64,000 bases of DNA from positions 4,154,001 through 4,218,000 of the forward strand of contig NC_008541.1 in assembly GCF_000196235.1 (NCBI RefSeq). The letters are read 5' to 3'. Below the pieces are notes generated by a model. The model did not search any database, was not told the origin of the DNA, and was given only the letters and a program-made list of their open reading frames with translations. A program made the translations under genes and the position numbers. The DNA comes from Arthrobacter sp. FB24 (GTDB taxonomy: Bacteria; Actinomycetota; Actinomycetes; Actinomycetales; Micrococcaceae). Below are positions 3,640 through 48,446 of this stretch, piece by piece. How positions within the stretch are numbered: position 1 is the first letter of the stretch; each line of letters starts with the position of its first letter.

Positions 3640-3860
3640 GACGCTCTCTCACTTCCTGCGGGATCTGGGCAGACGCTCTCTCACTTCCTGCACGATTTGG
3701 GCGGACGCTCTCACTTCCGGCACGATCTGGGCCGACGCTCTCTCACTTCCTGCACGATTTGGGCCGACGCTCTCTCACTTCCTGCACGATTTGGGCCGAC
3801 GCTCTCTCACTTATCGCAACAAAAGCCGGAACGCTCACTCACCGAGTGAGAGAGCGTTCC
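3640..3860. repeat. Array 1 of the ACGCTCTCTCACTT repeat family with terminal hairpin
   Basis: This fills the 300-bp gap between two convergent genes. Direct units begin at 3640, 3672, 3704, 3734, 3766 and 3798 (period 30-32), each opening with GACGCTCTCTCACTT and most continuing CCTGCACGATTTGGGC. The series ends in a dyad at 3828-3860, where GGAACGCTCACTCAC pairs with the inverted AGTGAGAGAGCGTTCC (one mismatch, loop CG). Related arrays lie near 8.3, 18.2 and 48.4 kb. The likely role is a bidirectional terminator or REP-like element. The bases from 3861 to the next gene's stop at 3926 show no feature. Confidence 0.9.
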
Positions 3861-3925
3861 GGTGGTTGGGGCCGAGGGTGGTTGGGGCCGCCGGTGATTG
3901 GTTCGCCGGCTCGGGCCTCCGGTGG

Positions 3926-4891
3926 CTAGCGACCGGCCGGTTCAGCGGCCAGCGCTGGCTGGCGCACCTGTGCCGGGGTGAAACGGGCGCCGGCGTCGGG
4001 GAATCCCGGAACCTCAATCCGTGCGTGGCTGTGGACTTCGGTGACCGTGTCCCGGATGTGCTGGGCGATCCCGGCCATGGTGGTGACCCACATTCCGTCC
4101 ATGTCCTTGACGCGGCTGATCAGCTGTTCCAGGGCCACGGCTTTCGAGGGCCGGCCGGAGATGAACGGGTGATTGGTCAGTACAAAGCAACTCCCGGCCG
4201 CATGGTGTGCCTCCGCTTCCAGCGTCCACATTTCCAGGACCTTGGCGGGGCTTTCGATGACGCCGCTGCCGGTGACCCCGGGATAGAACGCGTACTGCTC
4301 CCAGTCGTCGAGCGCCCAATCCACCGGGATTTCCACCAGGTCCCTGGAATCGCCCTCGCCGACGCTGAAGCGGTACGGTGCATCGCCGTCGAGCAGGCTT
4401 GAATCGTAGAGGAAGCCGCGGTCCGCAAGGAGCGCTGGCGAGTGCCAGTTCAGTTCCCACCACGGGGCCCGGTAACCGATCGGCCGGACACCGGCGACCT
4501 TGGCCAGCGCTTCCAGCCCGCGGTCGATGTACCGCGCCTCGGTGGCCGCGTCGATGCCCTGCATGGGTTCGTGCAGGTAGCCGTGGTGGGCGATTTCGTG
4601 GCCGGCGTCCACAATCCGGCGCACCACGTCGGGGTAGCTTTCAGCCGTGAATCCGGGAATGAAGAACGTGGCCTGGATGTCCTGGCGCTGCAGGATCTGG
4701 AGCAGCCGGGGCACTGCAACCTTGGGCCCGTAGGACTGGTGCGTCATGAGCGACATCCGGCGGGTGCTGGTGGGGTCGTGCGCAATGGTGCATGATTCCG
4801 CGTCCACATCGAAGGTGAAGGACGCGGCCGCCCGGAACCCTTCGGGCCAGGTGATGGGATGGGCGGAGTCCGGGAAGGCGGGGAATTCCAT
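3926..4891 (-). CDS. Polysaccharide deacetylase family protein (PuuE-like)
   Basis: A 321-residue NodB-fold hydrolase. Visible catalytic motifs are FTFDVDAES near residue 27 (metal-binding Asp), HEIAHHGYLHE near 100 (His-x3-His), and YRAPWWE near 147. Members of this clade include cofactor-independent allantoinase PuuE and cell-wall chitin/peptidoglycan deacetylases. No signal peptide is seen, which favours a cytosolic amidohydrolase. It lies 14 bases downstream of an NCS1 nucleobase/allantoin permease gene with a divergent PucR regulator, so I infer a ureide or pyrimidine substrate. The exact substrate cannot be read from sequence, and allantoinase AllB is already encoded nearby. Confidence 0.8.
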   Translation of the reverse strand: MEFPAFPDSAHPITWPEGFRAAASFTFDVDAESCTIAHDPTSTRRMSLMTHQSYGPKVAVPRLLQILQRQDIQATFFIPGFTAESYPDVVRRIVDAGHEIAHHGYLHEPMQGIDAATEARYIDRGLEALAKVAGVRPIGYRAPWWELNWHSPALLADRGFLYDSSLLDGDAPYRFSVGEGDSRDLVEIPVDWALDDWEQYAFYPGVTGSGVIESPAKVLEMWTLEAEAHHAAGSCFVLTNHPFISGRPSKAVALEQLISRVKDMDGMWVTTMAGIAQHIRDTVTEVHSHARIEVPGFPDAGARFTPAQVRQPALAAEPAGR

Positions 4892-4905
4892 GGTCCGAAT
4901 CCTTT

Positions 4906-6444
4906 CTACAGCGAGACTGCGGTGGTTGACGGGCGGGCTGAAGGTTCCGGGACCGTCGTCTCCGGGACGGTTACCTGGACCGGCTCAGCGGCGCCGCCGG
5001 CCAGAAATTTCCGGTGGACCCGGGGGCCAAGAACTGCGTAGCACGCTGCGCTGCTGACGCCGCCGGCGAGCCAGGAGAGGTCCCAGCCGCCCAGTGCCAC
5101 TGCGATGGGGCCCTGCATTGCGGGAACCAGGCCGTACATGAACAGCCAGGTGGCGAAAATGCCGACCAGGAGGGACACGACGCCCGCCCAGTTGACTCCG
5201 GGGAGCCGCTTAGTGCCCACGCCGTCGAACAGCCGTGAGGCCTCGCCGGGCCAGCGCTTCTCGATCCAGAAGAAATGCACCAGCATGACGCCGCCCCAGG
5301 CGGCCACCCAGGCCACGAGACCGATCAGCCACGCATCCAGGACGGAGGCGAAGTCCTCCTGGAAGATGAAGAATACGACGGCGATGAGCGAGAAAACGCC
5401 GACGAACAGATTGAGCTTGCGGCGGCTGATGGTGATGTCGAGGGCCTGGGTTGCGACTGAGAAGGTGTAGATGTTCAGGATGTTGGTGGCGATGGGTCCG
5501 TGCAGGACCATCAGGAGTACCGGAAGCGCGAGGACTCCGAAGTTTTGCACGATGAGTTTTCCGGGGTCGATCTCGCCACTGTTGGTTGCAAGGCTGGCGC
5601 CCAGGACTCCGAGCCAGACGACCGGGATGAACTGCCCCAGCACTGAGGCCAGGTAGACCTTGCGCTTCGGCACCTCGGTGCTCACAAAACGGGAGTAGTC
5701 AGCGGCGTAGGTGAACCAGGTGATTCCCCAGCCGATGCCGATGGCCGTCATAACGGCGCTCATGGCCGCGATCCGCTCCGAGCCTTCGAGGATGTTGCCG
5801 GCGGGTCCGGCGTAGGACCAGTTGATCTTCATGCCGAACCAGGCGACGGCGGACATCACCGCGAGGATGATGATGGTGGGCGGCACGGTCCACTTTTCAA
5901 AAGCCGCAATAGCCTTGTAGCCGAACCAGGCGATGGCAACCTGCGCAGCCATGATGGTGGTGGCGACACCGATCTTCCAGGCGTAGTTGTGGGCTGTCGG
6001 GTCCACCCAGCCGAGGGTGCCGAAGAGTGCCATGACAAGGTCCAGGATGATCCAGGTGTTGACGGCGCACCAGCCGATGACCAGTAGCGCCTGGATGGCG
6101 GCGGGAAGGTAGTTTCCGCGCCGGCCAAATGCCGCGCGGGCCAGCACCATGCCCGTGGCACCTGTCTTCTGGCCCAGCAGTACGAAGCAGCCGAACAGAA
6201 GCATGCCGATCAGGTTCCCCAAAACCAGGACGGTAACGGTGTCGGCGAAGCCAAGTCCGAGGTGGATGCCCAGGGCGCCGAGCACCCAGTTGATGGGCGC
6301 CAGGTTGGCTCCCGCCCAGATCCAGAACTGTCCGGAAACCTTCCGGGTCCGCTGTGATTCGGGGATGGGCTGAAGCCAGGCTTCAACGTCTTCGCCGGCT
6401 GCGGGCACGTGGCCGGCCGGGACTGCAGTGGAGTTGTTTTGCAT
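4906..6444 (-). CDS. NCS1 family nucleobase/allantoin:cation symporter
   Basis: A 512-residue integral membrane permease with about 12 hydrophobic segments. The N-terminal part (GQFWIWAGANLAPINWVLGA) matches the NCS1 family of cytosine, uracil, allantoin and hydantoin transporters. I place the start at the ATG at 6444 (MQNNSTAV), preceded by GGAGG at good spacing; a longer reading to 6558 would overlap the divergent regulator gene. It shares a 107-bp divergent intergenic region with pucR and is followed by the PuuE-like gene, suggesting a two-gene uptake/hydrolysis unit under PucR control. The substrate is inferred only from context. Confidence 0.88.
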   Translation of the reverse strand: MQNNSTAVPAGHVPAAGEDVEAWLQPIPESQRTRKVSGQFWIWAGANLAPINWVLGALGIHLGLGFADTVTVLVLGNLIGMLLFGCFVLLGQKTGATGMVLARAAFGRRGNYLPAAIQALLVIGWCAVNTWIILDLVMALFGTLGWVDPTAHNYAWKIGVATTIMAAQVAIAWFGYKAIAAFEKWTVPPTIIILAVMSAVAWFGMKINWSYAGPAGNILEGSERIAAMSAVMTAIGIGWGITWFTYAADYSRFVSTEVPKRKVYLASVLGQFIPVVWLGVLGASLATNSGEIDPGKLIVQNFGVLALPVLLMVLHGPIATNILNIYTFSVATQALDITISRRKLNLFVGVFSLIAVVFFIFQEDFASVLDAWLIGLVAWVAAWGGVMLVHFFWIEKRWPGEASRLFDGVGTKRLPGVNWAGVVSLLVGIFATWLFMYGLVPAMQGPIAVALGGWDLSWLAGGVSSAACYAVLGPRVHRKFLAGGAAEPVQVTVPETTVPEPSARPSTTAVSL

Positions 6445-6551
6445 GTGGGCCTCCGTGGGAGAAAGGGGATACAGCCAGAGTATGTGCCGCAGACCACACG
6501 CAACAAGATACGATATGTACATCAAAAGCCCCATTTGCATGACGGAGCGTA

Positions 6552-8201
6552 ATGCCAATAAAGCTCAGTGAGATCCTAAAACATGCCACCCTCACAGCCG
6601 CCGATCCCGTGATCCGCGCCGGTGCAGGCGCAGTGGCGGGTACGCAGCTGCGGTGGGTGCACTCCAGTGAAGTCCTGGACATCGCGCCGTTACTTAGCGG
6701 CGGCGAGCTGCTTCTTACCGGCGGCGACGCGCTGGTTACTGCCTCGGATGCACGCCGGGCGGAGTACGTCCGGCAGCTCTCGGAGCGCGGGGTTGGTGCG
6801 CTGGCGGTGGAAACTGGCCAGCGGCTCGCTTCACTGCCGTCGTCGATGATCCAGGCAGCGGAAACCGCCGGGCTTCCCCTTATCGAATTCCGCAAGGTGG
6901 TGCCCTTCGTGGGCATCATGCAGGCGATTAACTCGATGCTCGTCAGTGAATCGGTGGCCCATCTGCGCCGCGCGGATGAGGCCAGCCACGCCATGGCCGT
7001 TGAGCTGGCCCACGGGAGCAGCCTGGATCAGATCCTTGCCGTGCTGGCCGGAATCATTGGTGCGACCCTGGAGCTCTCATCCGTGTCCGGTGTAACGCTG
7101 GGCAACGCCGGCCCGGGCGGCGCCGATACGCGTCCGGCGGCCGGCGCCGGTACGCATCCGGGGAACGGCACGGCTTCCCAGCCGGCAGAGGGCCTGGAGT
7201 CCGGCACCGGCTCCCCGGCAGAGCCCGGAAGCGCGGCAGAGCCCGGAAGCGCGGCAGAGACGGGCATCGGCGGCACGTTGATAAGCATTGATGTGCCGGT
7301 CCGTGGCGTGCCCTCCGCGAGGTTGCTCATCAATGTCCCGGCCGACGGCGACGTCAACCTGGCGCGCGTGGCCGGCGGCCGCTGCGTGGACATCCTGTCG
7401 CTCGCTCTGCTGCAGCGGATGCCGCCCGGGCTGAAAGAAGTGGCCGGCACGGCGCTGCTGCGGGCCGTCAGTTCCGGCAGCCAGCCCTGGCGGCTTCAGC
7501 AGCTCTCCCCCGCCGCCGGGATCCTTCCCTCTGCGACGGTGGTCGCCGTCGTCGTCCGGTCGTCCACCTCACAGCAGCTGCGGGCGGCAATGGACACTAT
7601 CCTCAAGCGGTCGGCGCAGCAGAGCGCCAGCTATGTGGACAATGCCGAGCTCCTGGCGCTTGCCGCCCTCCCTTTTGACGGGGCGGCGGCCGCGCGGGCC
7701 GGGCTCGTGGCAGCACTCAGGGAGCTCCCGGTTGAGGCGGGGACCATGACGGCGGTGGGTCCGCTGGCCGCCGGGATCGAACACGCTCCCTGGTCGTTGT
7801 CGGAGGCGAAAAGCGCCCTGGATCTCGCCGTGAACGGCTCACTTCGGTCAGCGGCCCGGCCGGCGTCGGACACGGAAGGAGTGGTGATCGACGTCGAAAA
7901 TCTGGCGGTGGAGCGCCTGGCGGTGCAGCATCTGGACCAGGGCGCGCGGCAGGATTTCGTCCGCCAGCAGGTGGGGCCCCTGCTGGATCACGACGCGCGG
8001 CGCAACTCCCAGCTGCTCGCAACCCTGGCAACCTGGCTGGACTCTGGCTGCAACACCGCGCAGGCTGCCCGCGAACTGCATGTTGAGCGGCAGTCGATGC
8101 ATCACCGCATGCAGCGGATTTTTGAGTTGTGCGGCGGCGATCCGCGCGGAACCGGCCGGCTCGCTGCGCTGCACCTCGCCACCCGGCTGGCCGCGCTGTA
8201 G
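6552..8201 (+). CDS. PucR family transcriptional regulator
   Basis: A 549-residue regulator. Residues ~1-125 match the PucR N-terminal ligand-sensing domain (LSEILKHATLTAADPV, LLLTGGDAL). Residues ~180-235 are a Gly/Ala/Pro/Glu-rich linker with a repeated AEPGSA. The C-terminal ~60 residues are the PucR-type helix-turn-helix (WLDSGCNTAQAARELHVERQ, then HHRMQRI). The family activates purine/ureide catabolism and related nitrogen or amine pathways. ACGGAG lies just upstream of the ATG at 6552. The gene is divergent from the NCS1 permease; the shared region contains the palindrome ATGTACAT at 6515-6522, a weak operator candidate. Confidence 0.88.
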   Translation: MPIKLSEILKHATLTAADPVIRAGAGAVAGTQLRWVHSSEVLDIAPLLSGGELLLTGGDALVTASDARRAEYVRQLSERGVGALAVETGQRLASLPSSMIQAAETAGLPLIEFRKVVPFVGIMQAINSMLVSESVAHLRRADEASHAMAVELAHGSSLDQILAVLAGIIGATLELSSVSGVTLGNAGPGGADTRPAAGAGTHPGNGTASQPAEGLESGTGSPAEPGSAAEPGSAAETGIGGTLISIDVPVRGVPSARLLINVPADGDVNLARVAGGRCVDILSLALLQRMPPGLKEVAGTALLRAVSSGSQPWRLQQLSPAAGILPSATVVAVVVRSSTSQQLRAAMDTILKRSAQQSASYVDNAELLALAALPFDGAAAARAGLVAALRELPVEAGTMTAVGPLAAGIEHAPWSLSEAKSALDLAVNGSLRSAARPASDTEGVVIDVENLAVERLAVQHLDQGARQDFVRQQVGPLLDHDARRNSQLLATLATWLDSGCNTAQAARELHVERQSMHHRMQRIFELCGGDPRGTGRLAALHLATRLAAL

Positions 8202-8222
8202 CGAGTGGCCAACGCGTGAATG

Positions 8223-8358
8223 GACGCTCTCTCACTTAACGCAGGAAAAACCGGGACGCTCTCTCACTTTCTCCAAGAAAGTGAGAGAGCGTCCCGGCTT
8301 AACCGACCGGAAGTGAGAGAGCGTCCCGGCTTAACCGACCGGAAGTGAGAGAGCGTCC
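8223..8358. repeat. Array 2 of the ACGCTCTCTCACTT repeat family with perfect hairpin
   Basis: This fills the gap between convergent pucR and purU. One direct unit is at 8223, then a perfect dyad: arm 8253-8271 (GGGACGCTCTCTCACTTTC), loop TCCAA, arm 8277-8295. Two further inverted units with period 32 follow at about 8311 and 8343 (AAGTGAGAGAGCGTCC plus CGGCTTAACCGACCGG). The last unit runs directly into the purU stop codon. The structure would form a strong hairpin in transcripts from either side. Confidence 0.92.
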
Positions 8359-9269
8359 TAGCGGAGCACCACTGTCCTGTTGCCGCGCAGGATCACACGG
8401 CCCTCGCAATGCCAGCGCACCGCGTTGGAAAGGGCCTTGCACTCGGTGTCGCGTCCGGCGGCCACCAGGTCTTCCGGGCCGTAGGTGTGGTCCACCTCCA
8501 CCACCTGCTGGGCGATGATGGGTCCCTCGTCCAGCTCGCCGTTGACGTAGTGCGCGGTAGCCCCTACCGTCTTAACGCCGCGGGCGTAGGCCTGGTGGTA
8601 CGGCTTGGCGCCCTTGAAACTGGGCAGGAACGAGTGGTGGATGTTGATGGCACGGCCGTCCAGCTTGCGGGTGAGGCCGTCGCTAAGGACCTGCATGTAG
8701 CGGGCCAGCACCACCAGTTCCACGTCGAACTCGTCCACCAGCTCCAGCAGCCGCGCCTCGGCCTCGGGCTTGGTGGCGGCGGTAACGGGCACGTGGAAGA
8801 ACGGGATCCCGTGCCATGCCACCAGCGCCTGGTGGTCCGTGTGGTTGGACACCACGGCCACCACGTCCACCGGCAGCTCGCCGATCCTGGCACGGAACAG
8901 CAGGTCGTTGAGGCAGTGCCCGAACTTGGACACCATGATCAGCACGCGGCGCTTGGAACCGTGCGGCTCCAACCGCCAGCTCATCCCGAAGCGTTCAGCA
9001 ACCGGGGCAAAAGCGGCCCGCAGGGTCTCCGCGGTGGAGGCATCGCCGTCGGACGCAAAGTGCACCCGCATGAAGAAGTGCCCTTCGGAGCGTTCGCCGA
9101 ACTGCTGGTTGTCGATAATGTCGCAGCCGTGTTCCAGCAGGAAGCCGGAGACGGCGTGGACGATGCCCGGCGACTCGTTGCAGTCCAGCGTCAGGACATG
9201 TTCCACGGTGGTCGCGGCCGGGCCCGCGAAGGACGGAAGGGAAGAAGTTTCAGTCTCAATGGCAGTCAT
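8358..9269 (-). CDS. purU: Formyltetrahydrofolate deformylase (first copy)
   Basis: A 303-residue enzyme converting 10-formyl-THF to formate and THF. An N-terminal ACT domain (LTLDCNESPGIVHAVSGFLLEHG, about 26-100) precedes the formyltransferase-fold hydrolase. Family motifs are MVSKFGHCLNDLL, HVPVTAATKPEAE and INIHHSFLPSFKGAKPYHQA, with the catalytic Asp in GELDEGPII. It is the last gene of the sarcosine operon, 3 bases after sdaA. The context indicates it regenerates free THF when sarcosine demethylation loads the folate pool with one-carbon units. A second copy is at 29643-30572. Confidence 0.95.
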   Translation of the reverse strand: MTAIETETSSLPSFAGPAATTVEHVLTLDCNESPGIVHAVSGFLLEHGCDIIDNQQFGERSEGHFFMRVHFASDGDASTAETLRAAFAPVAERFGMSWRLEPHGSKRRVLIMVSKFGHCLNDLLFRARIGELPVDVVAVVSNHTDHQALVAWHGIPFFHVPVTAATKPEAEARLLELVDEFDVELVVLARYMQVLSDGLTRKLDGRAINIHHSFLPSFKGAKPYHQAYARGVKTVGATAHYVNGELDEGPIIAQQVVEVDHTYGPEDLVAAGRDTECKALSNAVRWHCEGRVILRGNRTVVLR

Positions 9270-9272
9270 GGC

Positions 9273-10646
9273 TCAGCACTCGATCACATTCACGGCGAGG
9301 CCCCCGCGGGAGGTCTCCTTGTACTTGGTTTTCATGTCCGCTCCTGTCTCGCGCATGGTTTTAATGGCTTTGTCCAGCGATACCTTGTGGCTGCCGTCCC
9401 CGTGCAGGGCAAGGCGGGCGGCGTTGATGGCTTTCACGCTGGCAATGGCGTTCCGTTCGATGCAGGGGATCTGCACCAGGCCGCCCACGGGGTCGCAGGT
9501 CAGGCCCAGGTTGTGTTCGATTCCCACCTCAGCCGCGTTTTCCACCTGTTCCGGCGTGCCGCCGAGCACTTCGCACAGTCCGGCGGCCGCCATGGAGCAG
9601 GCGGAACCCACTTCGCCCTGGCAGCCCACTTCGGCGCCGGAGATTGAGGCGTTGATCTTGAATAGAATCCCGACGGCGGCCGCCGCCAGCAGGAAGCGGA
9701 CCACGCCGTCGTCGTCGGCTCCGGGGACAAACTTGACGTAGTAGTGCAGTACGGCCGGCACAATCCCGGCCGCGCCGTTGGTGGGGGCGGTGACGATCCG
9801 CCCGCCGGCGGCATTTTCCTCGTTGACTGCCAGCGCGAAGAGGTTCACCCACTCCATGGCCCGGAGCGGATCGGTGACGCCGGTGTCCGCGGTCAGGGTC
9901 TTGAACAACGACGGCGCCCGGCGCCTGACGTTCAGCCCGCCGGGAAGGATCCCTTCCGCGGCGCAGCCGTTGTCCACGCATTCGCGCATGACGGCCCAGA
10001 GTTTCAGCAGCTCCTCGCGGAGTTCCGCTTCGCTGCGCCATGCCAGCTCGTTGGCGAGCATGACGTCGGAGATGGACATTCCCTCGCGGCGGCAGATCTC
10101 CAGGAGTTCGTCGGCCGTGGTGAAAGGGTATGGCAGCGGTGTGTCGTCCGCCACCACTTTGTCTCCGGCGTCGGCATCGCCGTCAACAACGAAACCGCCG
10201 CCAATGGAGTAGAAGCTCCGTTCACTGAGCACGGCGCCGGTGTGGTCCAGCGCGCGGAACGTCATGCCGTTGGGGTGGGCAGGCAGGGATTTCCGGCGGT
10301 GCAGCACCACGTCCTCGTCCCAGTTGAAGTCCACCCGGTGGTCCCCGCCGATCCGGAGTTCGGCGTCGAGCGCGGCGGCGGCCACCTGGTCGTCCGCGGT
10401 GGAGGTGTCCACCGTTTCGGGGTCCAGGCCCTGGAGGCCCAGGACCACGGCTTTGTCGGAGCCGTGGCCCCTGCCGGTGGCGCCGAGCGATCCGAACAGT
10501 TCCGCCTGGACCCGTGTGGTGGCGCTCAGGTGGCCGTCACCTTTGAGCCCTTCGGCGAACAGTTTCGCCGCCCGCATCGGGCCGACCGTGTGTGACGACG
10601 ACGGCCCGATGCCAACGGAGAAGAGGTCCAGGGCGCTCAGCGCCAT
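9273..10646 (-). CDS. sdaA: L-serine ammonia-lyase, single-chain iron-sulfur type
   Basis: A 457-residue enzyme deaminating L-serine to pyruvate and ammonia. The beta domain starts at once ([23 protein letters not shown]), and the alpha domain follows from about 185. Cluster cysteines are visible in [14 protein letters not shown] and, later, GLTCDPVGG and QIPCIERN. The start is the ATG at 10646, which shares a base with the soxG stop (TGATG). A much longer open frame reaching 11066 is antisense-like readthrough of soxG and is rejected. In the operon it takes serine made by GlyA from glycine into central metabolism. Confidence 0.95.
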
Positions 10647-11281
10647 CAGGGCACCTCGGGGGAGGCGTATTCCCTCATGGCGTCCAGGAGCCACCGGCCC
10701 AGGAAGTCCGCGAACGAAGCCCGCGGGAAGAGCCGGAAGCTGTCCTCGCCGGTCTTCAGCAGGATCACCGGGATGTTGCCCACTTCGGTGCTCAGGGCTG
10801 TTCCCGGCGTGAAGCTGCGGGGGTGCAGGTCCAAGGCGCAGCCCTTCTCCAGGACTGCCCGTGCACGGGGGCCAGAGAGTTCGAACGTGGTGCGGTTGGC
10901 GGAGAGGTCCACCACCTGGCCCGGGGCGTCTCCGAGGGCTGCCGTGAGGGAGCCGATCAGGTGCCCGCCGAGGGAGTCGTGGGCTTCTTCCGGTGCGACC
11001 ACCAGGAACTCGGACGGGCCGAGCCACAGGACGCTGATGCCGTCCGAGCCGGCCACTTCGCCGCACCGTGCGGGCAGGCCGCCGGCCACGGACGCGATCC
11101 GCGAGCCCTGCTCGGAGCGGGGGTCAACGCGGATCCCCGCCATGGTCTGGAACGGGCCTTCCTGGAGGACAACCGTGCCCGTCACGGAGCCGGCGTCCAG
11201 CGCTTCGGCCAGGTGGGAGGCCGGGCTGCGGCGGATGTCCCGGAGTCCATTGATGCCTTCGAGTGCTGCTGTGTTAGCCAT
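10646..11281 (-). CDS. soxG: Sarcosine oxidase gamma subunit
   Basis: A 211-residue small subunit of heterotetrameric sarcosine oxidase with a GcvT-like fold. Recognised by [50 protein letters not shown] and a C-terminal [16 protein letters not shown], all typical of SoxG. The start chosen ([12 protein letters not shown] at 11281) overlaps the soxA stop by 8 bases, matching the tight coupling across the operon. Upstream in-frame starts would extend into soxA. Confidence 0.9.
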
Positions 11282-14228
11282 CTTTGCGGGTCCCTTCAGG
11301 GTCAAAAAGTACGGTTTCGGCGACAACGACATCAACCAGCTGGTCACCGGCGGCGGCCACGAGGGTCTCGCCGATGCGGTTGCGGCCGTTCTTGATCAGG
11401 GCCAGGCCGAAGGACCGGCCCAGTGCGGCGCTGTGGTAACTCGAGGTCACGAAACCCTGCATCGGGACGGGACCGTAGGCGGGGTTGGTCGGGATGCCCT
11501 TTTCCACGAGCTGGGTGCCTTCCGGCAGCCGCAGCGTTCCGTCCACGGGGAGGACGCTGACCAGGTGCTTGCGGTCCTCGCGCTTCGCATCGGCACGGGC
11601 GTAGGAGCGCTTGCCGATGAACTCCTTGGCCTTGGAGACAACCCATTCCATCCCGGCATCCTGCGGGGTGACAGTGCCGTCGGTGTCCTGCCCGACGATC
11701 GGGTAGCCCTTTTCGGCGCGGAGCACGTGCATGGTTTCGGTGCCGTAGGGGGTGATATTGAATTCGGCCCCGGCGGCCGCAACAGCTTCCCAGGTGTTCA
11801 GGCCGTACCAGGACGGCACGTTAATTTCGTAGGCCAGTTCGCCGGAGAACGAGATCCGGCAGATCCGGGCCTGCACGCCGGAGGCGAGGGTGGTTTCGCG
11901 GAAGGTCATGAACGGGAAGGCTTCCGCCTCCAGGCCGCCGCCGGCGGCGAGTTCGGGTGCCACCTTCGCGAGGACCGCGCGGGATTTGGGCCCGACGACG
12001 GCAATGGTGCTCCACTGTTCGGTCACCGAGGTGCAGTGCACGTCCAGCTCAGGCCATTCGGTCTGTAGCCATTCCTCCAGCCAGTCCAGCACCTTCGCGG
12101 CACCGCCGGTGGTGGTGGTCATGAAGAACCGGTCCTCGTCGAGGCGCAGGGTCACGCCGTCGTCGAAAATCATGCCGTCCGCCATGCACATCACGCCGTA
12201 GCGGGCGGAACCCGGGGCGAGCTTCTTGAACGCGTTGGTGTAGATCCGGTTGAGGAACTCACCGGCGTCCTTGCCACGGATTTCGATCTTGCCGAGCGTG
12301 GTGGCGTCCATGAAGCCCACGGATTCGCGGACGGCGGCGCACTCGCGCAGCACGGCGGTGTCCATGTCCTCCCCGTCCTGCGGGTAGTACCAGGGGCGCT
12401 TCCACTGCCCCACGTCCTCGAACAGCGCACCCTTGGCCACGTGCCACGGGTGGATCGACGTAACACGGGCGGGGTCGAACAGTTCGCCGCGCTGGCGTCC
12501 GGCAAGTGCCGCAAACGCCACCGGGGTAAACGGTGCCCGGTACGTGGTGGTGCCGATGTCGCCGATGCCCCGGGACGCTTCGCCGGCGGTGCGGAGAGCC
12601 GCGGCGATCACGCCGATGGCGTTGACGCCGGAAGTCTTGCCCTGGTCGTTGGCGGTGCTGATCGAGGTGTAGCGCTTGATGTGCTCCACGGACCGCATGC
12701 CGGCGCCGGTGGACCGCAGCACGTCAGCCACGGACTGGTCGCGCTGGAAGTCCACGAAGTGGTGGTGCCAGTCGTCCGGGGTACCGGCCTGGCCGGGCAC
12801 CAGCCACAGCTGGCGGGTCGGGGCGGATGCCTTCGGCTCGCCGATGACAGAAGGTTCGACGGCGGCACTGAAGCCGGCGGCGATGGCCGCCGAAGCTCCG
12901 GCGGAGATGCCTTCGGCGAGGCAGTCGGCGAGTTCGAAGCTGCCGCGGCCGGAGCCGATGGTCTGCTGGTTCGGGACCACGGTGCTCGGTACGAACGCCG
13001 CCAGGTCCTCGTCCCAGCGCAGCTTTCCCTGCCGCTGCGAGTGGAGGTGCACCAGCGGGCTCCAGCCGCCGGAGACTGCCAGCAGGTCGCAGGCGATCTC
13101 TTCGATGCCGGAGGTGAGTTCGCCGTCGTCGTTGATACTGCGGACGGTGACGCTGTCCAGCCGGCCGTCTGCGGCGCCTTCTCCTGAGGCGGAGGTGTTG
13201 GCCACGGCGCTGCCGATCAGCACGCGGGTGCCGGACTCGACGGCGGCGGCTGCCACTTCCGTAAGGCGGGGACGGGCGTCGACGACGGCCGCCACCTTGA
13301 CGCCGGCGGCGCGCAGGTCCGAGGCCAGTGCGTAGGCGCTGTCGTTGGTGGTGCTGATGACGACGCGCTGCCCGGCGGCCACGGCGTAGCGGTTGAGGTA
13401 GCTGCGGACGGCCGAGGCGAGCATGATGCCCGGGCGGTCGTTGTTCTCGAAGACCAGCGGGCGCTCGTGGGCGCCGGGAGCAACCACCACCTGCTTGGCA
13501 CGGATGTGCCAAATCCGCTGCCGGGACACGCCGGGGGCGGCCGGGCTGGAGAGGTGGTCGGTGCGGTTCTGGACGGCGACGATGTAGTTGGCGTCGTAGG
13601 CGCCGAAGGCCGTGGTGCGGTTCAGGACGGTGCATTCGGCTGCGGAGACGAGCTCGGCTTCCACATCAGCCACCCATTCCAGGGACGGCTTGCCTTCGAT
13701 GGCCTCGGCCAGGTCAGGTGCGGTGGATCCGGACAGGAGCGTGCCGCCCAGTTCGGGCTGGTCGTCCAGCAGCATCACCCGGGCGCCGGTGCGCACGGCC
13801 TCGCGGGCCGCGGCCAGGCCGGCGGGGCCGCCGCCGATCACCAGGACGTCCGTGTGCACGAACTTCTTGTCGTACTCGGCGCGGTCCTCCTCGGGGTCAA
13901 GCCGGCCCAGGCCGTTGAGCAGGTCTGCCTTCAGGCCGTCCACCAGGGTGACGGTGGTGGCGGGGAGCATGGACTCTGCCACGTGGCCCGGGAACCGTGC
14001 TTCGACCCGGACCAGCGCGTTGGATTCCTCCACGCCGGCGGACATGATGCCGCGGGGGCGGTCCTCGTACAGCGAGTTGCCGGCGGCGATCCGGCCATTG
14101 GCGAGCAGGGCCGAGGCGAGCGTGTCGCCGGGGTGGCCGGTGAATTCCTCGCCGTCCACGGTGAAACGCCAGGAGATGCTGCGGTCGATGCGTCCGCCGG
14201 CGGCGAGGCGGGCGTTCTGGGAAGTCAC
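11274..14228 (-). CDS. soxA: Sarcosine oxidase alpha subunit
   Basis: A 984-residue subunit of the usual family length. The N-terminal ~100 residues form a ferredoxin-like domain ([20 protein letters not shown]). An FAD/NAD Rossmann domain follows ([14 protein letters not shown] near 130), and a second dinucleotide motif region lies after about 285. The C-terminal ~400 residues are a GcvT aminomethyltransferase domain that binds tetrahydrofolate ([20 protein letters not shown]). Known role: with SoxB/D/G it oxidises sarcosine to glycine and forms methylene-THF, or formaldehyde if THF is absent. The start overlaps the soxD stop as ATGA. Confidence 0.96.
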
Positions 14229-14662
14229 TTGGTTGCTCCTTCCGGGGCGGTGGTGCTTGAGGCTGTCGTGCTTGAGGCTGAACCGGCCGGTGCGATGCTG
14301 GTTGCAGAGGTGCTGGGCGCGCTGGTGCCGGTGGTGGTGCTGTCAGCGGCGGTGCTTGCAGTGCCGGATTCGGCCGCGGCCGCGACGGACACGTCCGGCC
14401 GGGGTGAACCCATCGGGTAGACGGCCTGGATGTCGTACGTGACGGTGTCGCGGAGCATGTTGAACCACTGGCGGCAACCGGTGCTGTGGAGCCAGCGCTC
14501 GGCGAAGGCGCCCTTGGTGTTGTCGCGGTAGAACAGGAACTCGGCCCATTCGCGGTCGTTCATGTCGTTCGGGTTTTCCGGGTACGGCACGTGGGCCTGG
14601 CCGCCGTAGTGGAACTCGGTCTCGTCGCGCGAGCCGCAGTTGGGGCATGAGATAAGCAGCAT
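14225..14662 (-). CDS. soxD: Sarcosine oxidase delta subunit with Ser/Thr/Ala-rich tail
   Basis: A 145-residue protein. Residues 1-90 are a full SoxD subunit, with the zinc-site start [32 protein letters not shown] and [15 protein letters not shown]. The family is normally about 95-100 residues; here a further ~55 residues of Ala/Ser/Thr low complexity follow (for example [20 protein letters not shown]). The tail is in frame and ends by ATGA overlap with soxA, so it is not an annotation error. Its role is unknown; it may be a disordered extension or simple-repeat expansion. Confidence 0.93.
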
Positions 14663-14689
14663 GTGCGTCTTCTTTCTATGGGACGGCGG

Positions 14690-15906
14690 CTAGTGGGCTA
14701 CTGCGGCTGCGCCGTGCTCGTCGATCAGGGCGCCGGTTTCGAAGCGTTCCAGCGCAAACGGCTTGTTCAGCTTGTGCGGGGTGCCCGTGGCGATGGTGTG
14801 CGCGAACGTGAGTCCGGCAGCCGGGGTGGCCTTGAAGCCGCCGGTGCCCCAGCCACAGTTCACGAACATGTTCTCCACCGGGGTGGTGCCCACGATCGGC
14901 GAGGCATCCAGCGTGGTGTCCACGATCCCGCCCCAGGTCCGGAGCACATGTGCCCGCGCAAAGATGGGGAACAGTTCAACGGCGGCGGCCATCTGGTTCT
15001 CAATTACGTGGAAGGACCCGCGCTGGCCGTAGCCGTTGTAGGAGTCGACGCCGGCGCCCATGACCAGTTCGCCCTTGTGGGCCTGGGAAACATAGACGTG
15101 CACGTGGTTGGACATCACCACGGTGGGGTGGACCGGTTCGTGCAGCTCGGAGACCAGGGCCTGGAGCGGGTGGGACTGGATGGGGAGCCGGAAGCCGGCC
15201 ATTTCCGCAAGGACCGAGCTGTGGCCGGCAGCGCACAGGCCCACCTTTTCGGTGTTGATGGTGCCGCGGTTGGTCTTGACGCCCACCACGCGGTCGCCGT
15301 CCTTGAGGAAGCCGGTGACTTCGCAGTTCTGGATGATGTCCACGCCCAGTTCGTCGCACTTGCGGGCGAAGGCCCAGGCCACGTGGTCGTGCTTGGCGAT
15401 GCCGGCACGCGGCTGGTAGGTGGCGCCCATGACCGGGTAGCGGATGTTGTCGCTGATGTTCAGGATCGGGCAGAGCTCCTTGACCTGGTCCGGTTCCAGC
15501 CACTCAGCGTCCACGCCGTTGAGCTTGTTCGCGCCCACGCGGCGGATGCTTTCGCGGACGTCGCCCAGGGTGTGGGCGAGGTTCATGACGCCTCGCTGGC
15601 TGAAGAGGAAGTCGTATTCGAGCTCTTCCGGCAGGATTTCCCAGAGCTTGAGGGCGTGCTCGTAGATGGCAGCGCTCTCGTCCCAGAGGTAGTTGGACCG
15701 GATGATGGTGGTGTTGCGTGCCATGTTGCCGCCGGCCAGCCAGCCCTTTTCCAGAACGGCGATGTTGGTCATGCCATGGTTCTTGGCCAGGAAGTAGGCG
15801 GTGGCCAGGCCGTGCCCGCCACCGCCCACAATCACGGCGCCGTAGGAGGACTTGGGCTCCGGGTTGCGCCAGAGGAAATCCGGGTGCTCGGGGAGCTGTT
15901 GGGTGC

Positions 15907-15910
<4 letters not shown>
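14690..15910 (-). CDS. soxB: Sarcosine oxidase beta subunit
   Basis: A 406-residue flavoprotein that carries the sarcosine oxidation site. The FAD-binding dinucleotide fold is at [19 protein letters not shown] (about 26-44), and the conserved [12 protein letters not shown] follows at 65-76. The AKHDHVAW block near 172-179 is where the covalent FMN histidine lies in characterised beta subunits. The C-terminal [16 protein letters not shown] and [14 protein letters not shown] are family signatures. The start overlaps the glyA stop as ATGA and soxD follows, so it belongs to the sarcosine operon. Confidence 0.95.
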
Positions 15911-17268
<1,358 letters not shown>

Positions 17269-17300
17269 GGATGCTCCTTTGAAATACCACTATTGCTATG

Positions 17301-17314
17301 ACTGATATATCAGT
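17301..17314. promoter_or_regulatory. Palindromic operator candidate between glyA and the GntR gene
   Basis: ACTGATATATCAGT is a perfect 14-bp palindrome in the 74-bp divergent gap. It lies 32 bases upstream of the glyA GTG, which places it near the likely sarcosine-operon promoter, and 28 bases before the first ATG of the GntR gene. FCD-type GntR regulators usually bind short AT-centred palindromes of this kind and control the divergent operon. Binding is inferred, not shown. Confidence 0.6.
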
Positions 17315-17342
17315 GTGAGGTCAATGGTATGATTGGGATCAC

Positions 17343-18146
17343 ATGAGAGTCAATAGCCGGTGGCAAAGTGGCACTGAGCTTCCGGTTGGAACCGCATCAA
17401 CCGGTGGTTGGAGGCCGGCCGCTGTGGTGACGACGAGCCATAAGGAACTGAGTAGCGAAGAACGGAGCGGCACCTTGAATGCACTTCCCGCCCTGCCACC
17501 CGCCGAGGACGAAGTACTGTCCCAGGCGGAGGCCGCCTACCGGCAGCTGCGCGACAAGCTGATCATGCTCGAGATCCGGCCCGGCGAGCCCATCAATGAC
17601 GGCCAGCTGGCGGCCGAGCTCGGCTTCGGCCGCACTCCTGTGCGCGAGGCGATCAAGCGGCTGGAGGTGGACCATCTGGTGGTGTCCTATCCGCGCCGGG
17701 GAACTTTTGCCACCACCGTGGACTTCACCGAACTGGCTGACGTCTCGGAGGTCCGGGAGCTGCTGGAGCCGCTGGCCGCCCGCAGTGCTGCCACGAGGGC
17801 AAACGCCGCCATGCGCCGCGAACTCCTGGAAGTCGCCACGATCATCGCGGAGCTTGATCCCAGCCCTGCCGAGTCCCGCGAGCTGATGCGCTATGACCTG
17901 ACAGTGCACCGGTTGATCTACAAGGCGGCTGCCAACCCGCACCTGGAAGACACCCTGATCCGCTACGACAACCTGGCCACCCGCATCTGGTGCCTGGTCC
18001 TGGACAAGGTGCCCTCGGTGAGCGGCCACATCACCGAGCACGTGGAGCTGCTCAAGGCGGTGGCCGCGGGCGACGCCGACAAAGCCGGCGAGCTGGCCCT
18101 GCACCATGTCACAAGCTTCGAAGAGACCATCCGCGGGGTGCTCTAG
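17343..18146 (+). CDS. GntR family regulator (FCD subfamily), probable sarcosine operon regulator
   Basis: Up to 267 residues. After a ~60-residue unstructured leader comes a GntR winged helix (AYRQLRDKLIMLEIRPGEPI, then GFGRTPVREAIKRLEVDHLV, PRRGTFAT). An all-helical FCD ligand domain follows (ELADVSEVRELLEPLAARSA, with metal-site-like HRLIYKAAANPH and ITEHVELLKA). The ATG at 17343 is used, but a GTG at about 17425 or the TTG at 17475 would remove most of the leader, so the start is uncertain. Its divergent position to glyA-sox points to control of sarcosine catabolism. Confidence 0.85.
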   Translation: MRVNSRWQSGTELPVGTASTGGWRPAAVVTTSHKELSSEERSGTLNALPALPPAEDEVLSQAEAAYRQLRDKLIMLEIRPGEPINDGQLAAELGFGRTPVREAIKRLEVDHLVVSYPRRGTFATTVDFTELADVSEVRELLEPLAARSAATRANAAMRRELLEVATIIAELDPSPAESRELMRYDLTVHRLIYKAAANPHLEDTLIRYDNLATRIWCLVLDKVPSVSGHITEHVELLKAVAAGDADKAGELALHHVTSFEETIRGVL

Positions 18147-18161
18147 GCGCCCCAAGGCAGA

Positions 18162-18299
18162 AACGCTCTCTCACTTTTGGCCCTAAACCCCAAGACGCTC
18201 TCTCACTTTTGGCCTTAAAACCCCAAGACGCTCTCTCACTTTCCTGAAGAAAGTGAGAGAGCGTCTCGTGTAAACCGGCAGGAAGTGAGAGAGCGTCCT
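18162..18299. repeat. Array 3 of the ACGCTCTCTCACTT repeat family with perfect hairpin
   Basis: Lies between the convergent GntR gene and a secreted-protein gene. Direct units begin at 18162, 18194 and 18227 with spacers CTTTTGGCCCTAAACCCC-like. The last forms a perfect 18-bp stem (18226-18243 with 18249-18266, loop CTGAA). One more inverted unit is at about 18283-18296. Organisation is the same as the other arrays: direct copies left, dyad, inverted copies right. Confidence 0.92.
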
Positions 18300-18326
18300 G
18301 CGTTGCTTTCCAGTCCTGTCTGCTTC

Positions 18327-18887
18327 CTAGTGGCCGCCGCCTCCGATCACTCCTGCTTCCACAGCCTTCGTGACGGCGTCCGCCTCGACCTGGGTCAGTT
18401 TGCCGTCGGTGACAGCCTGGTCAAGCCGGGTCTTAAGTTCGGCCGCCCGTTCAGCCTGGCCGGCCGTGCGGATTTCTTCCAGGGCTGCGGTGACCTTGGA
18501 TTCTTCGACGCCGAGTGACCCAGCCAGGTCCTTGGCCATCGCCGCGTCCATGGCGGAGCGGTCCGGTTTGGTCCCCTCGGTTGGCTTGGTTCCGTCAGCC
18601 GGTTTGTTGGCATCCCGGAACGCCTGGAGGGCCTCGGTCACCTGGGACTCCTCCACGCCGAGCTTGGTGGCCAGGTCGGCAGCCAGCTGGCCGCGGTCGC
18701 CGCCCCTGTGGCCGCCGCGCATGCCGCCGTCAGTGGTTGTGGATCCGTCGGTGGATGCGGTGCTCTGGGCCGTTGCGCTGGGGCTAGGGGTTTCGGCCGC
18801 CGAGGCCATCCCGGTGACTCCCAGCCCGGCGCCGAGCGCCAGTGCCCCGGCCGCCAGGCCGAGCGTGATTCTCTTCGTGCGTGACAT
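18327..18887 (-). CDS. Secreted protein with duplicated LGVEES helical repeat
   Basis: A 186-residue exported protein of unknown function. The start MSRTKRIT (ATG at 18887) has GAGGAG upstream; residues 4-30 form a signal peptide ending at ASAAE. A Ser/Thr/Gly-rich stretch with GGHRGGDRG follows. Two similar helical units come next: LATKLGVEESQVTEALQAFR (about 75-94) and LAGSLGVEESKVTAALEEIR (about 123-142). The end is DAVTKAVEAGVIGGGGH. The repeat recalls the DUF2680/YckD-like secreted proteins of Gram-positives; I give no function. Confidence 0.8.
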   Translation of the reverse strand: MSRTKRITLGLAAGALALGAGLGVTGMASAAETPSPSATAQSTASTDGSTTTDGGMRGGHRGGDRGQLAADLATKLGVEESQVTEALQAFRDANKPADGTKPTEGTKPDRSAMDAAMAKDLAGSLGVEESKVTAALEEIRTAGQAERAAELKTRLDQAVTDGKLTQVEADAVTKAVEAGVIGGGGH

Positions 18888-19065
18888 CTGATGTCTCCTC
18901 GATCCGCCGTGTGAACGGCTCTTTGGGGAAGAACGGCCGGTTTGCACCGTCCTTCACTCAAAGATGCGGCACCAAGGTATGGCGCTGCTGTTCGGATCCT
19001 GTCGGCAGGCTGTGAATGCGGGCCGGGAGATCAGGTGGAGGGTCGAGGGCATCCACGCAAGGCGG

Positions 19066-19235
19066 TCAGCTGTTCCTCTTCCAGCCCTTCGGCCACTTCA
19101 CGTTCAGCAGCAGAAGGCCCAGCAGGAGCGAGTCCACTGTCATGATGGCCGCCATAAGGTAGGCCCAGCCGATCATCATGCGGTGTTCACCGCCAACCTG
19201 CGGCACGAATTCTTGGCTGGCATCGATGGTCGCAT
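19066..19235 (-). pseudogene. Small membrane protein gene with apparent one-base deletion after the start
   Basis: Leftward from an ATG at 19235, preceded by AGGAG 6 bases upstream, the frame is lost at once. One base further on, another frame reads ATIDASQEFVPQVGGEHR, then MMIGWAYLMAAIMTVDSLLL, GLLLLNVKWPKGWKRNS and a stop at 19066. The interval is 170 bases; adding one G after ATG would give an exact 56-residue protein beginning MATIDAS. The product would have one or two hydrophobic segments and a basic tail. It may be a true frameshift, a sequence error, or translation from the internal MMIGW start (37 residues). No function is recognised. The flanks 18888-19065 and 19236-19369 show nothing else. 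Confidence 0.5.
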
Positions 19236-19369
19236 GACAATCTCCTGACGTGGATCCCCCCAGTCACTCGATAGTCCATCAAGTGTGGCATGGCCGCAGT
19301 CAGGACGGAACGGCCGGGACTACTCGAATCCTGCCGCGGTCATACACCGAAAGGCGCGCGGAATACTCG

Positions 19370-19993
19370 TTAGATAATCGCCGCGCGCAGCTGCTTGGCG
19401 GCCAGTGCCGGATCCTCTGCGCTGTAGATGGAGCCACCGACGACGGCGACGTCCGCACCGGCGCGCTGTACGGCTTCAATGGTGGACAGGTTTACTCCAC
19501 CGGCCACCGAAAACGGCACCCGGGCTTCCTCCCCTGCGCTGAGCAGCAAGTTGAGGTTGTAGCCCGGCTTGGCCTGCTCGTCGAGGCCTGCGTGGAACTC
19601 AATGAACTTGGCGCCGAGTGCGCGGGCTTCCTTGGCGCGGGTGACTTTGTCCGCGACGCCGATCAGGTCAACAACAATCCCCTTGTTGTGGGCCTTCGCC
19701 GCCTTGACCGCGCCGGCGATCGTGGAGTCATCCGCGCTGCCGAGGACGGACACCAGGTCCGCACCGGCGCCGAAGGCGATCTCGGCCTCCAGTTCGCCGG
19801 CGTCCATGGTCTTCATGTCCGCGAAGACGATCTTGTCCGGGTGGGCGGTCTTGACGGCGGTCACGGCGGACAGGCCGGCGTTCTTCACCAGCGGGGTGCC
19901 GAGCTCGATGATGTCAACGTATTCGGCGACCTTGCCCGCGAGCTCGAGGGCGGCTTCGACGGTCAGGACGTCCATGGCGACTTGCAGTTTCAC
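19370..19993 (-). CDS. hxlA: 3-hexulose-6-phosphate synthase
   Basis: A 207-residue enzyme of the ribulose monophosphate pathway that condenses formaldehyde with ribulose 5-phosphate. The OMP-decarboxylase superfamily signature DMKTMDAG lies at 59-66. The N-terminus MKLQVAMDVLTVEAALELAG and the ending VPFSVAGGVNLSTIEAVQRA, AVVGGSIYSAEDP are typical. The start codon is GTG at 19993. It follows hxlB by 48 bases on the same strand. Its presence beside betaine and sarcosine demethylation genes suggests it captures the formaldehyde released there. Confidence 0.94.
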   Translation of the reverse strand: MKLQVAMDVLTVEAALELAGKVAEYVDIIELGTPLVKNAGLSAVTAVKTAHPDKIVFADMKTMDAGELEAEIAFGAGADLVSVLGSADDSTIAGAVKAAKAHNKGIVVDLIGVADKVTRAKEARALGAKFIEFHAGLDEQAKPGYNLNLLLSAGEEARVPFSVAGGVNLSTIEAVQRAGADVAVVGGSIYSAEDPALAAKQLRAAII

Positions 19994-20041
19994 GTGGTGT
20001 CTCTTTTCTGGTTGGGGTGTCTCGGTGGAAATTGGCGTGGT

Positions 20042-47465: not shown

Positions 47466-47498
47466 AAAGCGGCGCCACGTCCTTCGTGGCGCCGCTTT
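47466..47498 (+). terminator. Intrinsic-type hairpin after creatinase
   Basis: A perfect 14-bp stem (AAAGCGGCGCCACG and its complement) with loop TCCTT lies 25 bases after the creatinase stop. No long T run follows. It probably separates the MFS-creatinase transcript from the IclR gene that starts 17 bases later. Confidence 0.8.
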
Positions 47499-47514
47499 CC
47501 GGCTTACATACGGA

Positions 47515-48336
47515 ATGATGGTGCACACCATGACCTCTGCAGAAGCCCCCGAAACCAGCAGCAACGGCGACGCCAAAGGCACGTCCGTCATCGTCAACGC
47601 CATCGCGGTGCTTCGAAGCTTTACCGCCGACGAGCCGCTGCTCGGCGTCACCGAGATCGCCAACCGCGTCGGCCTGCACAAGAGCACCGTTTCCCGCATC
47701 CTGGCCACGTTCGAACAGGAACACCTGGTGGAGCGCGACCCGGAGACCCGCAGGTTCCGCCTGGGACTGGGCCTCATCGCCGTCGCCGGACCGCTGCTGG
47801 CGGAACTCGAAGAGCGCCGCGTGGCCTACCCCGTCCTGCGCGAACTGACGGAGCAGACCGGCGAAACAAGTGCCCTCATGGTGTGGAACGGCTCCGAGTC
47901 GATGTGCGTGGAGCAAATTGCCAGCCACCACCAGATCAAGCACACCACCCCGCTGGGCGCCCGGTACAACGATGCCCTCAGCGCTTCCGTGCAGGTCTTC
48001 CTCGCCGCCGAGCCCGCCGAGCGCGTGCGGGTGTTGCTCCGCAGCGGCGAAATTGCCTATCCGGGGCTGGACGACACCAGCCTGGAGGCCTACCTGATCC
48101 GGCTCGGCGATGTCGCCCGGCGCGGCTGGGCCACCAATTACGGGGAGTCGTCACTGGACGAGGTCGGCCTGGCTGCCCCCGTGTTCGACCACCGCGGCGA
48201 CATCGTGGCGGCCGTCCTCATTCCGGCACCGCGCTTCCGGGTCTCCCCGGACACGCTGCAACGCCTCGGCGAATCCTGCAAGGCGGCCGCGGACCGCGTC
48301 ACAGCCCGTCTCGGCGGCGCCTCCCCCGCCCGCTAA
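47515..48336 (+). CDS. IclR family regulator beside creatinase
   Basis: A 273-residue IclR protein. The winged helix is SVIVNAIAVLRSFTADEPLL, then EIANRVGLHKSTVSRILATF. The effector domain includes HTTPLGARYNDALSASVQVF, GEIAYPGLDD and DEVGLAAPVFDHRGDIVAAV. Start codons at 47515, 47518 or 47530 are all in frame and none has a clear ribosome site; I use the first. It follows creatinase after a hairpin, so creatine/sarcosine control is the simplest inference. It is distinct from the IclR protein at 22817. Confidence 0.85.
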   Translation: MMVHTMTSAEAPETSSNGDAKGTSVIVNAIAVLRSFTADEPLLGVTEIANRVGLHKSTVSRILATFEQEHLVERDPETRRFRLGLGLIAVAGPLLAELEERRVAYPVLRELTEQTGETSALMVWNGSESMCVEQIASHHQIKHTTPLGARYNDALSASVQVFLAAEPAERVRVLLRSGEIAYPGLDDTSLEAYLIRLGDVARRGWATNYGESSLDEVGLAAPVFDHRGDIVAAVLIPAPRFRVSPDTLQRLGESCKAAADRVTARLGGASPAR

Positions 48337-48354
48337 CCCCGGCTCCCCGCGCCC

Positions 48355-48446
48355 GACGCTCTCTCACTTCCCGCCGGTTTTTCCCCGACGCTCTCTCACA
48401 GGTGAGAGAGCGTCGGAAAATAGGCGACCACAGGTGAGCGAGCGTC
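48355..48446. repeat. Array 4 of the ACGCTCTCTCACTT repeat family with perfect hairpin
   Basis: Between the convergent IclR and OpgC genes. A direct unit at 48355 is followed by a perfect 15-bp stem (48385-48399 with 48402-48416, CCGACGCTCTCTCAC and its complement, loop AG). A diverged inverted unit GGTGAGCGAGCGTC at 48433 ends inside the stop codon of the OpgC gene. Same polarity rule as the other three arrays. Confidence 0.9.

Follow-up and report, generated by a model that had tools for sequence, protein, structure and literature searches.

We analysed a 64,000-nucleotide (nt) stretch of the genome of Arthrobacter sp. FB24 (contig NC_008541.1, positions 4,154,001–4,218,000), hereafter called the window, which contains four short arrays of a 32-nt unit, each located between two convergent genes (Table 1). 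The source genome is 5.07 Mb in 4 contigs and is designated G000; other genomes and the individual loci carry G and L numbers. With up to two mismatches, the core sequence ACGCTCTCTCACTT matches 20 times in the window, a count not attained in any of 100 shuffles; 0.23 matches would be expected. A preliminary description of the window had placed the four arrays between convergent genes, and a check of the sequence found each array in its place and confirmed this setting for all four. By gene calls based on codon usage (trained on 13 long open reading frames, ORFs), the window contains 10 convergent junctions, and those with a gap of at least 100 bp, four in number, are exactly the four array junctions. 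As judged by eye, the convergent gaps of 83 and 98 bp each contain a long single-copy inverted repeat, and the four shorter convergent junctions contain neither an array nor an inverted repeat. No Rfam family scored above threshold anywhere in the window.

Table 1. Arrays and their neighbouring genes in the window (positions counted from its first nucleotide), and copies of an IS110-family element in the source genome (contig coordinates)
Feature	Position	Strand	Remarks
Array 1	3640–3857		Plus cores: five exact, one shortened, one weak; one minus core at the right end; flanked by a peroxiredoxin-type gene and a polysaccharide deacetylase gene (Pfam)
Array 2	8223–8357		Cores: two plus, three minus; 20-pair stem at the centre, then TTTTT on the minus strand; flanked by pucR-type and formyltransferase (purU-like) genes
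Array 3	18162–18297		Three plus and two minus cores, central hairpin; flanked by a GntR/FCD regulator gene and a gene without a firm family
Array 4	48355–48446		Cores: two plus, two minus; stem with a 4-nt loop at the centre; flanked by two convergent genes
Left neighbour of array 1, AhpC/TSA-Redoxin family	3145–3624	+	Gene call; Pfam on the longer ORF 2488–3621
Right neighbour of array 1, polysaccharide deacetylase family	3926–4891	-	Pfam
Left neighbour of array 2, PucR family regulator	6552–8201	+	Pfam
Right neighbour of array 2, formyl transferase domain	8358–9269	-	Pfam; ACT domain below cut-off; query for orthologous gene ends
Left neighbour of array 3, GntR/FCD regulator	17343–18146	+	Pfam; query for orthologous gene ends
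Right neighbour of array 3, no family above cut-off	18327–18947	-	Pfam
Left neighbour of array 4, no Pfam family	47515–48336	+	Gene call, Pfam
Right neighbour of array 4	48445–50778	-	Gene call; longest ORF runs to 51285
IS110-family element (PF01548, PF02371), four identical copies (L315–L318)	G000:C4 632977–634221, 4332870–4334114, 4335323–4336567; G000:C2 101547–102788		

The unit can be written as ACGC-NNNN-TCA(C/G)-nTyyyGC-sss-WWWW, in which the four variable positions are called the heart (TCTC in the FB24 arrays). Position frequencies were obtained from 544 units in eight genome sets, including 270 units from named loci chosen by TCTC. ACGC, the heart, and TCA(C/G) are followed by any base, T (0.89), three mostly pyrimidine positions, G (0.90), C (0.72), and a G/C-rich part; positions 23–26 are A/T-rich, followed by G/C-rich and then purine positions. 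The linkers, which had been described as differing between arrays, do vary, but they are also constrained, i.e. T14, G18, C19, and the A/T-rich block at positions 23–26 recur across species. The spacing, given earlier as about 32 bp, is exactly 32 in 90 of 100 pairs of same-strand neighbours (at most 130 bp apart) in the examined stretches of the source genome and in 283 of 307 in 116 other loci. The remaining same-strand spacings are 30–33 or near multiples of 32, with a single exception of 53.

The order of the units is equally rigid. In arrays with units on both strands (two-handed arrays), plus units precede minus units in 93 of 93 cases in a set of 179 arrays, in 106 of 106 cases in a separate set, the finder for which needs a partner at 31–33 nt and misses lone cores, and in 23 of 24 cases in five genomes with other hearts (G002, G003, G032, G073, and G077). 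Irregular orders were plus-minus-plus (once, in G073) and minus-then-plus (once, in G002, L274). The core ACGC-N4-TCAC is not self-complementary, and pairing is possible only between plus and minus units; their commonest spacing, 26 nt (11 of 22 in the source genome and 27 of 57 elsewhere), yields a hairpin. A perfect stem of at least 12 bp is present in 51 of 98 two-handed arrays vs. 0 of 294 random windows of equal length. Arrays 2, 3, and 4 of the window have folding z-scores between −7.5 and −11.1, whichever strand is folded (about −11 for either strand of array 2, about −8.5 for array 3, and −7.5 and −9.3 for array 4), and the tested piece of array 1 folds weakly (−2.7 and −2.1). A clustered regularly interspaced short palindromic repeat (CRISPR) array is unlikely, because the arrays are short, many, and scattered, and linkers are repeated within an array.

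In the whole source genome, 119 core matches with at most one mismatch were found, compared with none for the reversed-pattern control. The stretches of this genome that were examined had been chosen around core matches (100 of the 119 places listed, with others added), and none of their 161 core matches lies within a called gene, in agreement with the earlier claim that no copy occurs inside genes; nor was any array inside a gene seen in the loci fetched from the five genomes with other hearts. The 38 array junctions in these stretches comprise 21 convergent, 14 tandem, and 3 divergent ones, and the proportion of convergent junctions is much higher than among array-free junctions with a gap of at least 40 bp (17 of 151; odds ratio 9.7, p = 3 × 10^-8). 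Among the 179 arrays from own and other loci, most of which were fetched because they bear arrays (the heart-free survey and the loci chosen by gene, both described below, are less biased), 156 were classifiable, i.e. 76 convergent, 64 tandem, and 16 divergent; the other 23 lie at a contig edge or have no called gene beside them, for example, next to ribosomal RNA (rRNA) genes. Genome-wide, convergent placement is a strong preference and no rule. Confinement to convergent junctions and absence from divergent promoters, as claimed from the window, are correct for the window and fail outside it. One divergent junction (menD-like/lacI-type, by eye) has an array in 4 genomes (L046:4910–5106, L061:3121, L117:6385, and L164:5877). 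The 179 arrays also include three outside the genus, where, among the matches listed, the tandem TCTC pattern occurs in Clostridia metagenome-assembled genomes (MAGs; L057 and L120) and in the Cellulomonas MAG N5CT (L163); the first two may be chance matches in low-complexity sequence, and the contig of the third may be mis-binned.

The arrays begin close to stop codons. Measured from the stop codon, the nearest core of the same sense lies at a median distance of 14 nt (175 values), and the medians in the genomes with other hearts are 10–18 in four of five, the fifth being 79 in G073, from 4 values. Overlap or direct contact between core and stop codon is frequent (TGACGC..., e.g. L058:4502 and L140:5044), the distance being −1 or 0 in 20 of 175 cases. 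Because the strand of arrays with units on one strand only (one-handed arrays) matches that of the upstream gene in 22 of 32 cases in tandem contexts, the sense rule is only a preference.

Several features of the arrays resemble those of transcription terminators. In positions 1–20000 of the window, 18 terminator-like sites were found vs. 12.5 expected, and the one with the longest stem is the centre of array 2 on the minus strand, followed by TTTTT. Of 66 close-centred arrays, 45 have a T-tract in one direction or both. The share of T in the A/T block (T of T + A) is 0.80 in one-handed arrays and 0.47 beside a close centre; blocks that are T-rich in the read-through direction number 39 against 30 near a central hairpin and 26 against 172 among all other units (odds ratio 8.6, p = 6 × 10^-12). 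The block is thus turned so that T follows the hairpin, which is the pattern that termination by hairpin and U-tract would select. Read in the sense of the gene's transcript, the arms contain C at 0.40 and G at 0.17, compared with 0.34 and 0.31 downstream of other window genes, and the corresponding values in the five genomes with other hearts are 0.38–0.48 for C against 0.13–0.28 for G. Behind the array 2 neighbour gene, an ordinary hairpin followed by T stands in at least 7 of 30 genomes (G001, G003, G006, G007, G009, G026, and G029; by eye), and further genomes have other long inverted repeats there (by eye; the next gene often differs). Long near-perfect hairpins were also seen behind orthologues of window gene ends in L189 (G008), L191 (G033), L187 (G023), and L223 (G005); those of G008, G023, and G033 are mutually similar and could represent additional repeat families. 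The position of the arrays, their hairpins and T-tracts, and the ordinary terminators that take their place behind the same gene in several relatives argue for a role in termination or insulation, and the earlier suggestion of a bidirectional terminator gains support from these sequence features.

These features could be accounted for by purely cis-acting bidirectional terminators, in which hairpin and U-tract would end transcription, the pyrimidine arms could load Rho, and the heart would be an unread by-product of descent and slow copying. The hairpins, the T-tract bias, and the excess of C over G in the arms all favour this explanation. Arrays resemble intrinsic bidirectional terminators in that part of them have a central hairpin with a T-tract, but they differ in their tandem units, fixed period, and heart, and in that the one-handed arrays have no such hairpin. 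The C-rich, G-poor RNA predicted behind the stop codon is likewise reminiscent of Rho-dependent terminators. Rho sites, however, are known for a loose composition and not for a shared 12-nt core, such as the arrays possess.

The distribution of hearts among genomes favours a core that is read. The exact TCTC core (ACGCTCTCTCAC) is present in 22 of 36 relatives of the same genus, at 0 to 123 copies per genome, and in at most two copies in each of 22 genomes outside the genus. A heart-free tandem pattern (ACGCNNNNTCAS, 19–21 nt, ACGCNNNNTCAS) was found in 44 of 48 same-genus genomes that had been chosen for low or unknown TCTC counts, the 44 including seven with one to three pairs; it occurs at least 5 times in 37 of the 48 and up to 244 times in one genome, and the reversed control gave 0 in every genome. 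The family had been called lineage-specific, which describes the patchy TCTC core and the species-specific hearts and does not apply to the unit itself, which is nearly genus-wide. An array of the same design, containing GACGCGTCCTCAC, stands behind the array 2 neighbour gene in G002; this 12-mer has 26 copies in G002 and at most 3 in each of the other 60 genomes. In fetched arrays, the predominant hearts are GTCC in G002 (34 of 61, with TTCC in 19; loci chosen by the GTCC pattern, plus one TCTC place), CCCA in G003 (24 of 34; 15 of 26 pairs sampled), GCGC in G077 (35 of 59), CCGG in G073 (26 of 37; five places sampled), and TCCC in G032 (30 of 32 in 8 listed contigs, those with TCTC pairs being left out, and 37 of 48 core positions in the full listing, by eye). 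Common minority hearts are one step off, i.e. TTCC beside GTCC, CCGC beside GCGC, and GCCA beside CCCA. A tree of 24 genomes, built from a single gene, requires 11 changes of the heart labels, several of which rest on few units, compared with a mean of 14.3 after shuffling, and none of 200 shuffles gave a value as low; G018 (TCCC) is placed inside a clade of six TCTC genomes. One heart thus dominates unlinked arrays within a genome and another does so in the next species, with the ACGC/TCAC frame and the period kept.

Hearts and linkers behave differently at orthologous junctions. At the L274 junction, the heart is GTCC in G002, TCTC in G000, G020, and G064, GCCA in G003, and GCGC/CCGC in G074. 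Between G002 (L278) and A. globiformis NBRC 12137 (L095), the flanks are 95 and 93% identical and the heart is different in each of the two plus units. Of 20 linker positions, 9 and 16 are identical, and the two arrays share the beginning of the central inverted repeat (by eye). Linker identity for the best unit pair of orthologous arrays is 0.74 with the same heart and 0.57 with different hearts, and for non-orthologous arrays it is 0.49–0.52 between genomes and 0.56 between different places of one genome, although the significance of these differences is overstated by some overlapping loci (e.g. L194/L278; L085/L179 are probably one place). Because linkers are more alike at the same junction across species than within a genome, the arrays appear to be mainly inherited in place, with the heart changing. 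The earlier suggestion that the family spreads by copying finds little backing in these values (0.74 at the same junction vs. 0.56 within a genome and 0.52 between genomes); some copying between arrays within a genome may occur, given that 0.56 is slightly higher than 0.52. This small excess is what the slow copying of the purely cis-acting explanation would predict. On the other hand, hairpins need no common heart across unlinked arrays, the same heart is found in one-handed and two-handed arrays, linkers stay with the junction while hearts differ, and the fixed period and order are left unexplained. We regard cis-acting terminators without a reader as rather unlikely. A common heart in unlinked arrays and a fixed order and period that hairpins do not need point instead to a trans-acting reader.

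The patchy copy number of the TCTC core raises the question of a selfish repeat, active or relic, that is tolerated at gene ends in the manner of repetitive extragenic palindromic (REP) sequences. REP sequences and bacterial interspersed mosaic elements (BIMEs) with a REP-associated tyrosine transposase (RAYT) are, like the arrays, multi-copy and intergenic, with copies often opposed. The arrays, in contrast, lack the GTAG tag, their units are not palindromic, and PF01797, the Y1 transposase family, is absent from 60 of 61 genomes, including the source genome, in a search that gives matches in 5 of 14 control genomes. The REP-like family with a REP-type transposase envisaged in the preliminary description is therefore not borne out, and a RAYT-driven REP was rejected. 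A closer parallel is offered by the CGTC-tagged REPs of Di Nocera et al. (2013; PMC3733652), which the available portions of that paper describe as palindromes with 8–9 bp stems and 4–5 nt loops that, like the arrays, lie mostly behind genes in convergent or co-directional gaps, form many inverted dimers, and have no dedicated transposase; in addition, the unit of the present arrays starts with GACG, which is the CGTC end on the other strand. The arrays differ from them in having no stem within the unit, a tandem repetition every 32 nt, and a species-specific heart, and Arthrobacter is not named in those portions. This gene-end placement, together with an insertion sequence that targets the core as others are reported, in parts of PMC1525189, to target REPs, would suit a selfish repeat, but the near absence of PF01797, linkers that follow the junction and not the genome, and an order fixed relative to the array and mostly also to the genes leave us giving that explanation little credence. 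With respect to phage origin, no tandem TCTC pattern was found in IMG/VR, where other hearts were not sought. No description of these arrays was found in the open-licence literature, covered mostly by titles and abstract openings. A table of REP counts in RepRanger (PMC12306157) includes Arthrobacter livingstonensis, and some arrays may be counted there without description.

We consider it about an even chance (roughly 0.5) that the arrays are nearly genus-wide, polar elements for ending transcription, the heart of which is probably read by a trans-acting factor. Most units closely follow a stop codon, and their core strand is that of the mRNA; between convergent genes, two such arms are opposed, often with a central hairpin and then a T-tract. 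On this reading, RNA polymerase coming out of either gene would be stopped in the array before entering the neighbour, partly by the hairpin and T-tract and partly by tandem units that a sequence-specific, trans-acting factor may bind, either as DNA or as nascent RNA. The heart would be species-specific because the four-base preference of this putative factor drifts between species and the sites follow. Arrays of binding sites for terminator proteins are known in eukaryotes, e.g. TTF-I and the Sal box, where tandem, orientation-dependent, species-specific boxes stand behind transcription units. The present arrays are similarly tandem, polar, species-specific, and located behind transcription units, and they show a sequence-specific box in fixed order and phase, which is one feature expected of a protein-read polar terminator array; they differ in being bacterial and genome-wide, with a reader that is putative. 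We tentatively go further, at less than even odds, and suggest a trans-read bacterial system for transcription ends, with many polar 32-bp sites per genome, a four-base specificity that shifts between species, and sites re-tuned in place, which is exploited by an IS110 element and a DUF559-type gene; by analogy, it might parallel, in prokaryotes, the co-evolution of a terminator protein and the boxes it reads.

A number of observations weigh against this reading. One-handed arrays, which are unable to form a hairpin, account for 86 of 179 and 175 of 281 arrays in the two sets, and four of the 48 genomes have no tandem pair, i.e. the arrays are dispensable there, or present but not seen. Hearts are not uniform in G002 and G077, as their counts show, and they are loosely mixed in G008, G023, G033, and G082. 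Divergent arrays exist (16 of 156), and a terminator serving both genes makes little sense at the recurrent menD-like/lacI-type divergent junction. At rRNA operons, all 29 loci in which the downstream sequence was readable begin it with an ordinary hairpin (by eye; two operons of the source genome were also examined). Finally, no candidate for the reading factor turned up, although no genome search was aimed at it.

In several genomes, arrays or worn-down units lie 3′ of the rRNA hairpin (L040, L053, L331, L343, and the 5S loci L320–L349). As a main terminator of rRNA operons, the arrays were rejected, since the ordinary hairpin precedes them. Their position behind, and not at, rRNA terminators would fit a DNA topology element, in which phased sites three helical turns apart serve a nucleoid protein or gyrase where positive supercoils collect at convergent ends, with transcription ending elsewhere. 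The 32-nt period, the A/T-rich block in each unit, and the convergent enrichment would also fit, and passages of PMC1525189 link convergent gene ends with supercoiling. Because the T-tract bias relative to central hairpins and the excess of C over G on the sense strand suggest a role in RNA or transcription, we judge such an element to be quite improbable. Gene-end repeats are usually ascribed to REPs or plain terminators; here, a rigid 32-nt unit in fixed order is present in most genomes of a genus, with a four-base heart of its own favoured in each species and with junctions kept. If a factor does read the heart, transcription termination or insulation in Actinobacteria would have a layer that has gone unrecognised, and the arrays would provide a natural series of specificity changes for studying the co-evolution of one factor with many sites.

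Two kinds of mobile or potentially mobile genes are associated with the arrays. All four copies of the IS110-family element (Table 1) are inserted at AAGTGAG|AGAG, which is core sequence; three are at arrays, and the copy on contig C2 is outside an array. Within one array, another gene is bracketed by two oppositely oriented copies, like a composite element. The left non-coding stretch of the element contains AAGTGAG and CTCTCT and is a possible bridge-RNA guide for the core target. REPs are known targets of IS621 and further IS110 elements (PMC1525189 and PMC11208160); the present copies are similar in lying at a repeat core, and they differ in that the target is these arrays and the bridge RNA is only putative.

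The second is a gene for a 319-amino-acid protein (L044:5218–6174), which has no Pfam match itself; its relatives are named as DUF559 or endonuclease domain proteins, and part of them have PF04480. Close homologues (at least 70% identity) occur in 11 of the loci examined, the gene's own locus included; the finder placed arrays on both sides of the gene in 7, and the distance from array to start codon is 71–73 bp in six of these. From species to species, this nuclease-like gene occupies different junctions, with plus arms on one side and minus arms on the other (L044, L074, L085, L091, L143, L295, L370, L179, and L183), L179 and L183 having been fetched by a neighbouring gene, independently of arrays. 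No copy was seen in the array loci of G002 or G008. At the junction corresponding to array 2 of the window, which represents the empty site, the gene lies inside the array in G021 and G015 (by eye). The DUF559-type gene either moves between arrays or is captured there. In L179, L182, and L183, it is preceded by TGTGGATAA, which we take to resemble a DnaA box.

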